DNA from: Diatrype stigma
Lineage: Eukaryota; Ascomycota; Sordariomycetes; Xylariales; Diatrypaceae
Direction of reading: 5' to 3'
Assembly: GCA_022225965.2 (NCBI GenBank)
Contig: JAKJXP020000005.1
Span: 124,001 to 188,000, forward strand
DNA length: 64,000 nucleotides
How positions within the stretch are numbered: position 1 is the stretch's first letter; every line of letters starts with the position of its first letter. The position numbers and the translations under genes are program-made. The notes beneath the pieces are model-generated. The model did not search any database. It saw only the letters and a list, made by a program, of their open reading frames with translations, and was not told the DNA's origin. Positions 15,614 to 23,850 of this stretch are shown one piece after another.

Positions 15614-17371
15614 ATGTCTCTGCTGCCTGTCCAAGTGTACGGGCTCGAGATCCCGCCCGGACAGGATGTGTTGACTCCTGCCCGACAGGAGTTCGACGTG
15701 CCTAATGCCGTGGTAAGTTGCATATCTCCGATCTGCCTCCAGTCCGGTCAAATATCACCGCTTCCTATTGTTGCAGGTGCAGGATGGCATTCGCAATTGC
15801 CCGATGGATCAGCAATGTCTTGAACAATGTCTTGTCATTCACTACAGTTGCTAACAGCTCGGAAATAGTTCCGTATCACCATGGCTGCCATCGATCCCAC
15901 AGACCCTCCCCAGGCTGATGAGGATGGCAACATTCCTAGCGTCCCGCGGGCCACCTTGAAGATCGTCCGCCCGCGATTCCCCGACATGATGGATGAGCTT
16001 GACGACGACCGTCTGCAGCGACTCATGTATGGCTCGGATGACAGCGACGATGATAGCGACGATGACAGCAAGAATGGCGACGACGAGCCCAACGGTGGTC
16101 CCAGCGACCCTGCCAAGACGAAGAAGGCAAGGCGAGAGGCTGCTCTGAAGAAGCTCATCGAGGCCGCCCAGGCTGAGGAGGACTCAGACGAGGAGATGGC
16201 TGACGGCGGCGCCAAGAAGACCAATGGCACTGCTAAGAAGGTCAACAAGAAGGGCAAGAAGCCTGCCACTTCCAGCGACGAGGACTCGGATGAGGATGAC
16301 GAGGACGACGAGGAAGTCGACTGGCAGGAGCTTGTTGTCTGCACTCTCGACACCGAGCGCGTAAGTATTCTTCTACTCCGGGAATCTTGATTTGTACTAA
16401 CAAGCCCCAAGAATTTCCAACAACCCCTTGATATCACCATTGCCCCCAACGAGGATGTTCACTTCGTAGTGAAGGGCACTCATACTGTCTATCTCTCCGG
16501 CAACTATGTCATTGATGCCGACGAGGACGACTCGTCCGAGGAGGACGAGGAGGATGACTACGACTACCCTGAGGGTATCGACGAGTATGACTCGGAGGAT
16601 TCCGAGATCGACGAGCTCGACGACATCCAGGACCCGCGTGTCACCGAGGTTGAATCCGACGAAGAGGAGGCGCCCAAGCTTGTGGCCGCCGACACCAAGA
16701 AGGGCAAGAACAAGCGTGCCGCCCCAGAAGAGGCCGAAGACCTCGATGCCATGATCGCCAAGGCCGCTGCTGCCACTGATACCAAACTCAGCAAGAAGCA
16801 GCAGAAGAAGTTGAAGAACAACAAGGGCGAAGCTGTTGCTGCTGAGGCAGACAAGAAGGCGGCCGAGACGGCTAAGGAGGCTCCCGCGAAAGGAGATAAG
16901 AAGGTTCAATTCGCTAAGAACCTCGAGCAAGGCCCTACCGGCTCTGCCGCCTCGGAGAAGCCTGCTGGGAAGGCAGCTTCAGTCGGTGTCAAGGTTGTCC
17001 AGGGTGTCACAGTCGATGACCGCAAGGCTGGCTCCGGACGTAGCGTGAAGAAGGGTGACCGGGTCGACGTGAGATACATTGGCAAGCTCGCAGATGGCAA
17101 GGTGTTCGATTGTAAGTTTACCCCCGCCTAACTATGCCAACCATTTGCTAACTGTCACTCAATAGCCAACAAGAAGGGCAAGCCCTTCAGCTTCAAGGCT
17201 GGTGACGGACAAGTCATCAAGGGCTGGGATGTTGGTATCATCGGCATGTCTGTTGGTGGAGAGCGCCGACTGACCATCCCTGCGCACCTCGCTTATGGAA
17301 GCAAGGCGTTGCCTGGCATTCCTGCCAACAGCCAGCTTATCTTTGATGTCAAGCTGCTTGGTATCAAATGA
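15614..17371 (+). CDS. FPR4: Nucleolar FKBP-type peptidyl-prolyl isomerase (Fpr3/Fpr4-like)
   Basis: Four exons, 15614-15712, 15869-16360, 16412-17111 and 17166-17371, give 1497 nt in frame and 498 aa. Introns are 156, 51 and 54 nt. The N-terminus ([14 protein letters not shown]...[11 protein letters not shown]) is the nucleoplasmin-like module of Fpr3/4 proteins. It is followed by several acidic Asp/Glu-Ser tracts separated by Lys-rich stretches typical of nucleolar histone chaperones. The C-terminal FKBP domain covers about residues 410-498: [48 protein letters not shown] and [11 protein letters not shown]. By family it should isomerise proline bonds, including in histone tails, and bind rDNA chromatin. 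The first intron is the longest and hides no extra conserved exon that I can see. Confidence 0.93.
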
Positions 17372-18414: not shown

Positions 18415-21344
18415 ATGAAGAGGAACTTTCCATTGATGGCGAGCTCGCCAGCCCTCCCAGCAAATGATGGGCCGCCCTCGTTGAAGACCACATCATCGTC
18501 AACATCACTTCCAATGCGCCCTGGGGCCGAGCCTCCTCATAAAAACCGAAGACAAGGATCACGGGTCAGGTCTGCTTTAAAATCATTGACAAATAGCCGT
18601 CGGTTTCCGCCTGGTCTCTGTATCGCGTGATACTAACATGTGCCCAGTATCAAACTCCAACTCTGCCGAGGTGGCCACTACATGGCCAACAAACTCCCCG
18701 ACACCAACGCCGATACCAGCAAACAGACCACCGGAAAGGCGTCATATCATAAAAAGGCTATCACTCCCCTTCCTTTGGAAGCCTTTCGGCGCTGCGGTCC
18801 CCATACTTCACCGAAAACCGACCATTTCTAGGCCACCTCCCCCTTCATTAGAAAAGCAAGGCCGAGCGACTACCCCAAATCGTACCCCTGGCGTTACACC
18901 ACCATCCGATAGTAACAGTAACAGTAACAGCACTAGTAATGCCACGTCCAGTGGTAAGTCGTCCGGCCAGACTCATGCTACGACTAATACCGCAAAGACT
19001 TCGGTAGATTCCAAGCTCTCTAGCAGAGACCATGATTCCAGTGATAAAAAGTCAGCTACGGTGATTCGTGTTGAGAGACCCGAGGGCTGTGCCGTGCCTG
19101 ATTGTCTCACCACGATCCAGGAGACTGCACTCGACTTGGCTTCACCTACTATCTTGACTGTCGAGAAAGCCGCAGCAGCAAAGATCTACCTGGAGTTGTA
19201 CTTCAACAAATATCTGAACAAACCCACCCCCCGCTCTCTTCGTAGAAGATATCTAGAGTTGGAACTTTATCATGACAAGACACTGACACCACTAGAAAAG
19301 GATCTACGACGACAGGCGTTCTACAAGCAGGAGACAGACCACTTGCGAGAGACGCGTTCTCTGAAAGCGAAGAGCCTTGCCACGACTCAAAGGAATCACA
19401 CCCCTCTTGTAGATAACTATGAAGTCTTGAAGATACTCGGAAAAGGCAGCTTCGGTGTCGTAAGGCTAGTACGTGAGAAGGCAGATGCGGATAACGCAGC
19501 ACATAGCCTTGGTCATCCACGACAAGTATACGCTATGAAAGTCATCCGCAAGTCTACAATGTTGAGGACGAGCCAGGAGGGCCACCTACGAGCTGAGCGT
19601 GATTTCCTAGTAGCTTCAGAGGGCTCGAGATGGTGAGTTGCAATACCCGACTCGCTCCTAGTGTGCCAACTAGCATGTTGACCTGGCTATCTGTAGGGTT
19701 GTCCCATTGATTGCCAGCTTCCAAGATACAGCCAATCTTTATCTTGTCATGGAGTATATGCCTGGGGGTGACTTCCTTGGTCTCCTAATTCGAGAGAATA
19801 TTCTTAGCGAGCCAGTTGCCAAGTTCTATATCGCGGAGATGATTCTCTGCATCGAGGAAGCTCACTCGCTCCGCTGTATACACCGGGACATCAAGCCGGA
19901 CAACTTCCTGGTATCAGCATCTGGCCATTTGATGATATCTGATTTCGGCTTGGCGTTTGACGGTCACTGGTCCCACGATACAAGCTACTATCTCACGCAC
20001 CGCTATAGCCTACTCCACAAACTGGGGATTGCAGTGGAAGGCGATTCCCATGATCGTGCCGAGGGGCTAAATGGAGCGAGTAAGTGGACGCAGGGCGTTG
20101 CAACGGCAATGCAAAGGCATGAACGCCGGCCATCTATTTATGAGTCCGACGAAGAGCTACTCTTGGACTGGCGCAACCGATGTAGCAATCGTATGGCAGC
20201 CAGATCCTGCGTTGGAACAAGCCAGTACATGGCGCCAGAAGTCATCCAGGAGGGTGAATATGATGCGAGATGCGATTAGTGGAGTCTCGGCGTCATTCTG
20301 TATGAGTGTTTGTATGGCCACACGCCGTTTTTGTCCGAGGAGGGCGGGCGGCAAGCCACAAAGCGGAATATCGTCAACCACAAGCAAACCTTTGCATTCC
20401 CACCTCGTCCCATTGTCTCGAGGCGTTGCGTAGATCTCATTTCCAGCCTCATTTGCGAGCAGGAGAACCGCCTCTGCTCGCACCGCTACCGATATAGCCC
20501 AGCGACTAACTCGGGTTGCTCTCCGCCCGCAGATTACACGGGTCGCGCAGTGTACTCCCACGATGCGGAGGACATCAAGGCGCACAGATGGTTCCGTGAC
20601 CTGCCGTGGGACCAGTTACACCAGCTCCCGCCGCCGTTCATCCCGCAGATCAGCAGCCTTGAGGATACACACTATTTCGATGAGGAAGAGCCCATATCCG
20701 ACTGGTCGGAGTCGCAATCGGAGAGCAGCATGACTTCGCAGGATATGGCTGGCGACTACTCCCTCGCCAGCCTCACCGCCTGCGGAGGCAGAGGAGCCCC
20801 GGGCGGCCACCCGACCCTGTTCAGCGGCGGAACACCGGCGTCGAAGGGCAGCTGGAGCGGCGCCCTGAAGGCGGCCGCCATGCAGGCCGAGCTAGCGAAG
20901 TTCCCACCGCACTGGCGCGGGATGATGGCGCACTTCGTGGCGACGCCGTACGACGCGGTGAAGCTCAAGCGGATGGACCAGGAGATGGAGGGCGTGGCGA
21001 TGGCGGCGGCGTACGGCGGGGCCGACGCCGCCGCCTCCTGCGAGAGGATGAAGGCGTTCGTGCGGGCGTTCGGGCGCCGCGAGCGCAAGCGGCCGCGCGA
21101 CCGGCTGCTCCGCGACCGGCGGACCAAGGGCGTCGCGCTCCAGGTGCGCAAGCAGACGGCCTTCTTGGGCTACACGTACCGCCGCCGGCGGTATTATCGG
21201 CCTCGGAACTACTACGGCCATCACTGCTGGGATCTTGAGGAGCCTGCTATGGACCTTTCTGCTAATACGGCCCCTAACCCTCGTTCCGCCGACCCCCATC
21301 CTACTACTGCCGACCGAAGCCCTGGCACTGCTGGACTGGAGTAG
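18415..21344 (+). CDS. PUK1: NDR-like AGC kinase, PUK1/stk-21 type, with in-frame TAG at a conserved Trp
   Basis: Proposed exons 18415-18598, 18648-19632 and 19697-21344 give 939 codons in frame, with a single internal stop (TAG, 20277-20279, codon 584). The 64-nt intron 2 is clear; the 49-nt intron 1 and the start are less sure. The kinase domain is complete up to the stop: GKGSFGVVRLV, YAMKVIRKS, HRDIKPDN, DFGLAFDG, a long NDR-type insert, and GTSQYMAPEVIQEGEYDARCD. After TAG the same frame continues WSLGVILYECLYGHTPF and a long tail ending at 21344. Relatives read CDWWSLG here, so TAG replaces TGG. Read literally, the product stops in subdomain IX at 583 aa. In Fusarium, PUK1 stops at this kind of site are corrected to Trp by A-to-I RNA editing in perithecia. 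Full length would be 938 aa. A recent null allele is the alternative. Confidence 0.85.
20277..20279 (+). promoter_or_regulatory. PUK1: Putative A-to-I editing site: UAG to UGG (Trp)
   Basis: The codon at the first Trp of DWWSLG is TAG; the next codon is TGG. The candidate edited base is A20278, preceded by U and followed by G, the context favoured in fungal A-to-I editing. Bases 20266-20271 (CGAGAT) can pair with 20284-20289 (GTCTCG) through five Watson-Crick pairs and one U-G wobble, leaving a 12-nt loop that contains A20278. Edited sites in Fusarium tend to lie in hairpin loops. Editing itself cannot be seen in DNA. Confidence 0.7.
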
Positions 21345-22230: not shown

Positions 22231-23850
22231 TCAGGAGCCTTCCGAGGCAATCTTCGCGTTGGCGGCGTCGGCCCTCTCGCAGCACTCCTCGATGACCTTC
22301 CAGAAGAGCGCGATGTCGAGGCCGCGCGGGATTCGGACGCCCTCGGCGGCGGCGCCGCCCTCGAGCTTGCGCACGATGGTGCGGCCCGTCTGCGCGCCGC
22401 GGAACGCGTCCTCGAGCGTGCCCTCGGTCACCACCTCGACGGCGAACCGCTCGCGCTCCGGCCGCTGCCCCGGCGCCGCGGGCGGCACCGCCTTCGGGTC
22501 GAAGTCGTAGAAGGGGATCTCCCACGGCGTCCCCGCCAGCGCGGCCGCCACCGCGAGCGGGTCGTGCAGGGGCGGGCCTTCGACGATGCCGAATACGTCG
22601 CTGTGCAGTGCGTTAGTTGGATTGGATTGAATTGGATTGGATGGCAGCAAAGAAACATATACGATGAGAGGTTATAGGAAACAAAGTTCCCCGTTAAAAA
22701 CTTCATTTCACTCACCGGTACGTCCCCGCGAAGAAGTTCAGCAGCTCCACGAGCATGACCCTCAAGTCGGACTTGCCCCTGCCCTCCCTCTTCTTGTCGC
22801 CCGCGCCCTCGGGCCCGGAACGAGGGCCGTGCAGCAGCAGGTCCTGCACCTCGCTCGTGGCGAGGACGAGGTGGGTCAGGTCCAGGGGGACGATGGTGGT
22901 CTTGGGGGCGAGGACGGGGTGGCCGAGCAGGAAGGCGGCGGCCTCGGGGTCGATCAGGACGTTGAACTCGGCCCACTGGGTCCAGTTGCCGACGCGGTCG
23001 ACGCCGGCGACCTGGCCCAGGGGCGCGGCCGTGAAGCCGCCGCCGACGGCCCCGCCCATGGCGCTCAGGCCCCGCACGTGGCCCGCCAGCGCCGGGTGCG
23101 CCTGGAACAGCGCCGCCGCGTTCGTCAGCGCCCCCGTCGCCACCATCCACGCCGTGCCGGGCGCCGTGGCCGACAGCGCCGCCGCCATCGCGTCCACGGC
23201 CGGCACGGGCGACGCCGCGCTCCGCGGCGCCGGGAGCAGCGCCGTCCCGTCCAGCCCGGACTCGCCGTGGATGTCGGTGGGCGCGTGGATGGATTGGCGG
23301 TGCTGTGCGCGCGATGTTGTGTGAATAGGAGATGGTTTCTTTATGTCAACTATACTTTGGGGGAGGGGAGGGGAGGAAAGGGGGTTTTGATAAGGAACTA
23401 TTATGGGATTGTATACTCTGGTAGCGACGTATTAGTAAGGGCCAAGCATTTCCAAGAGATTCTTCCCGGCGGGAGCAGGGCTTCTTACGACAAGCGCATG
23501 TGCCGCACCCGGGTGTACGGTAACCTCCTTGTGCTTGCCGATGGCGGCTAGCAGCGACAGGGCATTGTTCGTCGTCTTTTCCAGGGACGCGTTGCCGTGC
23601 ACCGTGCTTATGCCCAGCAGCTTGATGCCGGGGTGGTACGCGGCAAGGAGGATGGCGAATGCGTCCTACCGTGGCGAGACAATCAGAACGATTTATTCTT
23701 ATTTTTTATTGTTCATTTTTATTGGGCTGTTGAATGCGGGCGAAAATCGAAGTTATCACTCGTTCCGCATCCCTTGACTTGTCGATATGATCAATCACTT
23801 ACATCGTGGCCGGGATCGCAGTCCAACCATAGCGGAACGGGGTCCGACAT
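22231..23850 (-). CDS. Nucleoside hydrolase (inosine-uridine preferring type)
   Basis: Exons recognised on the minus strand: 23850-23803, 23665-23489, 23300-22716 and 22600-22231. The start reads LWLDCDPGHDDAFAILLAA, with the DxDxxxDD calcium/ribose-binding cluster split by intron 1. Further family segments are GISTVHGNASLEKTTNNA, DIHGESGLDGTALLP, MVATGALTNAAALFQ, GNWTQWAEFNVLIDPEAA, and a C-terminal VVTEGT near the end. By family it cleaves N-glycosidic bonds of ribonucleosides in salvage. The join between 23489 and 23300 is unresolved: the obvious donor (GTAAGA) is phase 0 but the acceptor (CACAG at 23301) needs phase 2. An extra 62-nt proline-rich exon at about 23417-23356 would restore frame; otherwise the gene carries a frame break. 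Other joins are consistent. Confidence 0.8.

Follow-up and report, generated by a model that had tools for sequence, protein, structure and literature searches.

A UAG codon in the kinase domain of a PUK1/STK-21-type gene of Diatrype stigma as a candidate for correction by A-to-I RNA editing

The kinase PUK1 was the first reported target of A-to-I mRNA editing in fungi. In Fusarium graminearum, the PUK1 transcript is changed from UAGUAG to UGGUGG in perithecia (PMC4817773), and the two stops were found to be edited there at 91% and 99% (PMC4817773, PMC11156358). The Neurospora crassa gene NCU03242 (stk-21) is changed from UAGUGG to UGGUGG in perithecia. In other words, the first codon of the pair is edited (PMC4817773). 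The same report describes editing of UGGUAG in the F. verticillioides PUK1 orthologue, and it states that the genomes of Magnaporthe oryzae and Claviceps paspali already carry the G's at the pair (PMC4817773). A first-pass annotation of the locus described here had pointed to the editing of PUK1 and stk-21, in agreement with that report. Mutants of puk1 and stk-21 indicate a role of these kinases in asci and ascospores (PMC7306014).

Editing of a premature stop also restores the full protein in AMD1, CHE1, and zao, as is proposed here, but these proteins are different from the kinase. CHE1 is edited in hyphae, and zao is edited by OLD proteins upon virus infection; wrong gene models were described for AMD1 and CHE1 (PMC5496914, PMC11169179, PMC12754623). 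A review passage on editing gives Neurospora, Sordaria, and Fusarium as its examples. Among the full-text papers searched, none reported A-to-I mRNA editing in Xylariales or Hypoxylon.

The gene considered here lies on the + strand of the window, which is the whole 64,000-nucleotide stretch of Diatrype stigma DNA that was analysed. Exon 1 (18415..18598) opens with an ATG, and the codons at its 3' end (RVRSALKSLTNS) match the homologues P0115 and P0121. It is followed by intron 1 (18599..18647; 49 nt), which runs from GT to CAG and has the branch point TACTAAC. Exon 2 (18648..19632) encodes an N-terminal extension and the start of the kinase domain with the motifs GKGSFG and AMKVI, and intron 2 (19633..19696; 64 nt) runs from GTGAGT to TAG. 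Exon 3 (19697..21344) encodes the remaining kinase domain and a C-terminal tail and has one TAG inside it. The spliced coding sequence is 2817 nt long (939 codons). The homologue searches were made with a query model in which intron 1 was set differently and which was 12 codons shorter; positions in the old numbering are therefore 12 lower.

The TAG is codon 584 (20277..20279), and its A20278, nucleotide 1751 of the coding sequence, is the candidate edited base that would turn UAG into UGG (Trp). In the spliced model, which starts at 18415 and has its final stop at 21342-21344, no other in-frame stop occurs; the first-pass annotation had described this for exon 3. The flanks are also whole on both sides as described there, with YDARCD before the TAG and WSLGVILYECLYGHTPF after it. 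About 355 protein-like codons had been estimated past the TAG; 354 were counted (20280..21341), and they are open, conserved, and comprise kinase subdomains IX to XI and the tail. As predicted from the sequence, a stop at codon 584 truncates the protein so that subdomains IX-XI are missing. No intron is present 3' of the TAG in the modelled coding sequence, so the classical exon-junction signal for nonsense-mediated decay would be absent. A 301-base stretch around the TAG has a single match in the 49-Mb assembly.

The TAG stands for the first Trp of DWWSLG, within kinase subdomain IX, and the next codon (585) is TGG, giving TAGTGG at 20277-20282. The locus thus resembles N. crassa stk-21, in which the Trp pair of the kinase domain is likewise written UAG UGG, with the stop in first place. 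The edited A is nucleotide 1628 of the coding sequence in NCU03242 rather than 1751, and the N. crassa gene is edited in perithecia, whereas for the xylarialean gene editing is what the comparison suggests. F. graminearum PUK1 (FGRRES_01058) belongs to the same kinase group by position and motif and its first stop is equivalent to that of the window, but it has a tandem UAGUAG where the window has a single UAG and then UGG. In F. verticillioides FVEG_01191, the single edited stop of this Trp pair takes the place of the second Trp. The affected Trp had been called invariant, which holds only in part. Of the 120 best homologue models, 46 supply their own residue in this column, and it is W in all of them, but among six other kinases encoded by the genome three have Y, F, or L. 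The near-universal Trp of the DxWxxG kinase motif is the second one.

By its sequence, the kinase of this xylarialean fungus is of the AGC/NDR type and probably belongs to the PUK1/STK-21 group. The part before the TAG matches Pkinase (Pfam) at 101.7 bits, and its best solved-structure match is CBK1. The part after the TAG, taken alone, scores 25.9 bits, which is below the family cut-off of 31.7. The G-loop, Lys, HRD, DFG, and APE were all found, and from these the full-length protein is expected to have kinase activity. Among the 120 best homologues listed, the closest named proteins are those of Monosporascus (up to 77% identity over the searched part), a genus that NCBI places in the Xylariales. 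Models of Claviceps, Epichloe, two Fusarium, and Podospora fall in the clade of the window kinase. Orthology to PUK1/STK-21 is tentatively proposed from motif, position, and clade. The window gene is a further gene of the PUK1/stk-21 type, and the idea of its editing is already known in kind. A search of viral contigs for the kinase found no relative. Prokaryote genome contigs gave only 14 loci, in records titled bacterial MAGs, with matches of 28-45% identity.

Matches to other families were observed on both sides of the kinase. Upstream, at window 16469-17131, is a reading frame that matches FKBP. A Stachybotrys model of 1269 aa (P0120) has the kinase and an FKBP domain together, which suggests that the order of the genes is conserved and that this model is a fusion. 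Downstream of the kinase, matches to inosine-uridine preferring nucleoside hydrolase (PF01156) are found on the - strand (window 22231-23206).

The local sequence around A20278 is of the kind that is edited in other fungi. U at -1 and G at +1 are both present, as had been pointed out, and these are reported editing preferences (PMC4817773, PMC9600606). The RNA is predicted to fold into a hairpin (20260..20296, + strand) with A20278 in the loop. An earlier proposal of a 12-nt loop stands (8 nt if a lone pair, 20273-20282, is counted), but the stem is longer and slightly shifted compared to the 20266-20271/20284-20289 pairing proposed before: 20260-20266 pairs with 20290-20296 and 20267-20271 with 20284-20288, while 20289 is bulged. 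The predicted minimum free energy is -14.6 kcal/mol, and the unpaired probability of A20278 is 1.0. Compared to shuffled sequences, the stability is not unusual for a 61-mer (z -0.78; 41/200 shuffles at least as stable), a 101-mer (z -0.60; 54/200), or a 29-mer (z -1.23; 27/200); the 41-mer is unusually stable (z -2.66; 3/200). In F. graminearum, 62.4% of edited sites were reported in hairpin loops (PMC4817773). The window holds 744 TAG on the + strand and 776 on the - strand; of these, 231 and 229, respectively, have the A in a hairpin loop, so the loop alone is weak evidence.

The genome also contains Tad2, Tad3, and one Ame1-like (MV type) gene. Tad2 (C19:306567-306944) has TAD2 as its best solved match (E 1.7e-25), and an inactive-type Tad3 (C117:5457-5726) has TAD3 (E 1.1e-12), with HAA where Tad2 has HAE. 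DUF726, searched genome-wide, matches at five places that were read as four genes (C16:79804, C16:163804, C25:343932, and C26:326642-327717), because two matches adjoin on C26. A change from KN to MV let Ame1 bind Tad3, and the MV pair is linked to editing (PMC11087585). The DUF726 protein at C25:343932-344990 has an MV pair, whereas the other three have NH, RN, and LD. Its Ser-Asp and Ser-His spacings, 58 and 98, are those of Ame1 S531, D589, and H629; its MV pair is one residue closer to the Ser than in the published Ame1 numbering. This protein is an MV-type Ame1 candidate by DUF726, MV pair, and triad spacing only. A second in-frame stop was also sought in DNA methylases of the same genome; six of the seven matches have none, and stops occur only in the weakest fragment.

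Evidence that the stop is shared comes from gene models of relatives. In these, the skipping of the codon serves as a proxy for a stop, the window's own codon being the one known as TAG. A homologue search scored 8000 candidates, of which 6952 passed. Among the best 120 of these, 73 models skip the TAG codon, 46 read W, and one, from Biscogniauxia marginata (P0115), ends exactly at the preceding Asp. A second search used only the part before the TAG as query, which favours short models; of the 120 proteins it listed, 17 terminate directly ahead of the first Trp of the pair and 5 directly ahead of the second. A metagenomic protein (P0141) ends at the TAG codon and is identical to the window kinase at 181 of 190 residues before the stop. 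Another (P0239) carries the frame on past the stop (251/301 identical, four gaps), and the two appear to lie on one contig, to judge from the longest-contig figure that they share (5511). The same stop in the independent sequence of P0141 argues against a sequencing error. An alignment of orthologues had been suggested as a check on whether the stop is conserved; P0141 together with the 73 skipping models speaks for conservation. WW is encoded directly in Nemania sp. FL0916, Rosellinia necatrix, and Pestalotiopsis fici, which are taken to be Xylariales, so the stop would be dispensable in some species.

A FastTree tree placed these proteins in two clades. It was built from 239 rows (the 238 proteins of both searches and the window) using only columns before the stop site, and was midpoint rooted. 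The clade of the window has 130 rows, and 94 of its 129 proteins skip or stop at the Trp pair, compared to 4 of 109 in the other clade. In the former, the site is deleted in 76 proteins, while 13 end before the first Trp and 5 before the second; 14 end earlier and 21 have WW. In the latter, 105 have WW and 4 end before the first Trp. Judging by genus names, we take the window's clade to be Sordariomycetes and the other to be Leotiomycetes with metagenomic rows. Some of the 21 WW rows in the window's clade may not be stop-free: a Microdochium model with WW (P0183) is without the stretch that holds W548, and the models P0128 and P0153 are short or have odd ends. Four metagenomic kinases outside the window's clade (P0150, P0154, P0179, and P0238) terminate directly ahead of the first DWW Trp. 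Editing in Pezizomycetes probably has an independent origin. If these four kinases belong to Pezizomycetes, the same Trp would have been affected on two separate occasions.

With the stop shared among relatives, the downstream frame conserved, and deaminase genes present in the genome, the suggestion that the TAG is a candidate for stop-codon correction gains support. The UAG at codon 584 of this PUK1/STK-21-type kinase is, on this analysis, very probably corrected by A-to-I editing. In hyphae, translation would stop after 583 residues, and the protein, which would lack subdomains IX-XI, should be inactive. Once fruiting bodies form, A20278 in the hairpin loop would be deaminated by Tad2-Tad3 acting with Ame1. 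The resulting UIG would be read as UGG (Trp), yielding the full 938-residue kinase. By analogy with puk1 and stk-21 mutants, the full-length kinase may serve ascus and ascospore development.

Stops in this kinase do not appear to be confined to one codon. In the window's clade, 32 models (13 + 5 + 14) reach no further than the Trp pair, and 31 of them end directly ahead of a Trp column; models ending after the pair were left out (P0109, P0128, P0137, and P0153 are short or have odd ends). These stops outside the window are seen as protein ends only. Thirteen of the 31 end at W584, five at W585, six at W520, and six at W548. The remaining one is P0188; in the column at which it ends, two of its four nearest relatives have Trp and two have Gly. 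The one of the 32 that does not end before a Trp is P0147. W520 corresponds to a TGG of the window (codon 520, 20085..20087, + strand) and is the end column of four named Apiospora models, one metagenomic model, and one Gnomoniopsis model (P0129, P0131, P0132, P0134, P0139, P0217). W548 likewise corresponds to a TGG (codon 548, 20169..20171, + strand) and is the end column of models from Annulohypoxylon maeteangense, Conoideocrella, Epichloe, Ustilaginoidea, and two Ophiocordyceps (P0123, P0148, P0155, P0159, P0174, P0184). The downstream halves of the Apiospora kinase (P0242, P0247) and a metagenomic one (P0244) have DARCDWWSLG intact, so the stop in Apiospora sits at W520 and not at W584. 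In comparison, only 12 of the 109 one-step nonsense changes in window codons 313-612 fall on Trp; because the rows are related, 31/32 versus 12/109 gives no simple probability, but the pattern recurs in several lineages and at no fewer than four positions.

From these protein ends, the stop appears to shift from one Trp codon to another, with four or five positions in use, a pattern that is possibly new: W520 in Apiospora, W548 in several Hypocreales and one Annulohypoxylon, W584 in most of the listed Xylariales models, the window gene included, and W585 elsewhere. One tentative proposal, which may well prove wrong, is that Sordariomycete PUK1-type kinases keep at least one editable stop in the kinase domain, so that selection holds an off-by-default, on-by-editing switch while the individual sites turn over. 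Under a competing view, the stop is genuine and can be edited but is neutral: editing lets it persist without benefit, and no switch is selected. This has a chance somewhat short of even. Stops come and go among relatives, some models have WW, and a neutral model has been discussed for puk1 (PMC5381528). On the other hand, the stop is kept in most of the listed Xylariales models and appears at other Trp codons, which may point beyond drift. The neutral view concerns why, and not whether, the codon is edited, and it overlaps with the explanation by editing.

Pseudogenization, splicing, and readthrough fit worse than editing. A recent pseudogene, in which TGG became TAG and the kinase was lost in Diatrype stigma, is improbable. 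A stop within the catalytic domain is a classic sign of one, and TGG to TAG takes a single transition. Nevertheless, the same stop is found in a relative that differs by 5% in protein, gene models place it in many more species, and the preference of model ends for Trp columns is not that of one-step nonsense changes. There is no second in-frame stop across 938 codons. Dinucleotide ratios show no clear mark of repeat-induced point mutation. Constraint past the stop was measured as the distance (positions 594-720, old numbering) to seven intact outgroups, which is 0.407 for the window. This exceeds the four Monosporascus models (0.384-0.393) but falls inside the range of all ten relatives (0.384-0.460), two of which have WW and are more distant than the window (0.450 and 0.460). 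The loss of constraint that the first-pass annotation had named as a refutation is thus not evident, as there is no clear acceleration. In a neutral simulation of codons 635-938 to the divergence from P0239, 72 of 1000 runs were stop-free, with a mean of 2.4 stops; taken alone, this is weak evidence. In short, the several lesions and relaxed constraint past the stop that mark a decaying pseudogene were not found.

Could the TAG lie within a small intron that is spliced out? Most public gene models of the relatives imply so, with 73 of the best 120 skipping the codon, and 12 in-frame GT-AG spans of the window cover the TAG, one of which (39 nt) ends on the TAG's own AG. Such an intron is nonetheless very improbable. 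In F. graminearum, the third predicted intron of PUK1 proved false by cDNA (PMC4817773), and false introns over such stops were also described for CHE1 (PMC11169179). The 73 skips use 22 boundary pairs that are not conserved among relatives and have the TAG site alone as their common feature, which argues that gene finders avoided a stop rather than that an intron is shared. The Trp itself is removed in 69 of the 73, and the other four end one residue earlier, so that 4 of the best 120 models show V in the first-Trp column, at the model junction. Deletions of at least 8 residues elsewhere in the kinase domain occur in 0 to 7 proteins at sampled positions from 300 to 545 (old numbering). Removal of the intron would cost conserved kinase residues including D583. 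A CTRAY branch point occurs in none of the 12 spans, a weak argument since one of the two accepted introns is also without it. Translational readthrough of the UAG, which would supply the long protein at a low level in all stages, is scarcely credible: the frame does stay in phase past the single stop, but the context UAG UGG AGU is unlike the strong signals UAG CAR YYA and UGA CUA, and a preference for Trp codons is expected of UAG-to-UGG editing but not of readthrough.

Correction of the UAG by editing would extend what is known from PUK1 in Fusarium and Neurospora to Xylariales. The analysis also suggests that an error at this codon is common to many public models of the kinase (73 of the best 120). 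Finally, because the stop appears to move from one Trp codon to another, it becomes possible to test a debated question, namely whether restorative editing is selected as a switch or merely tolerated.
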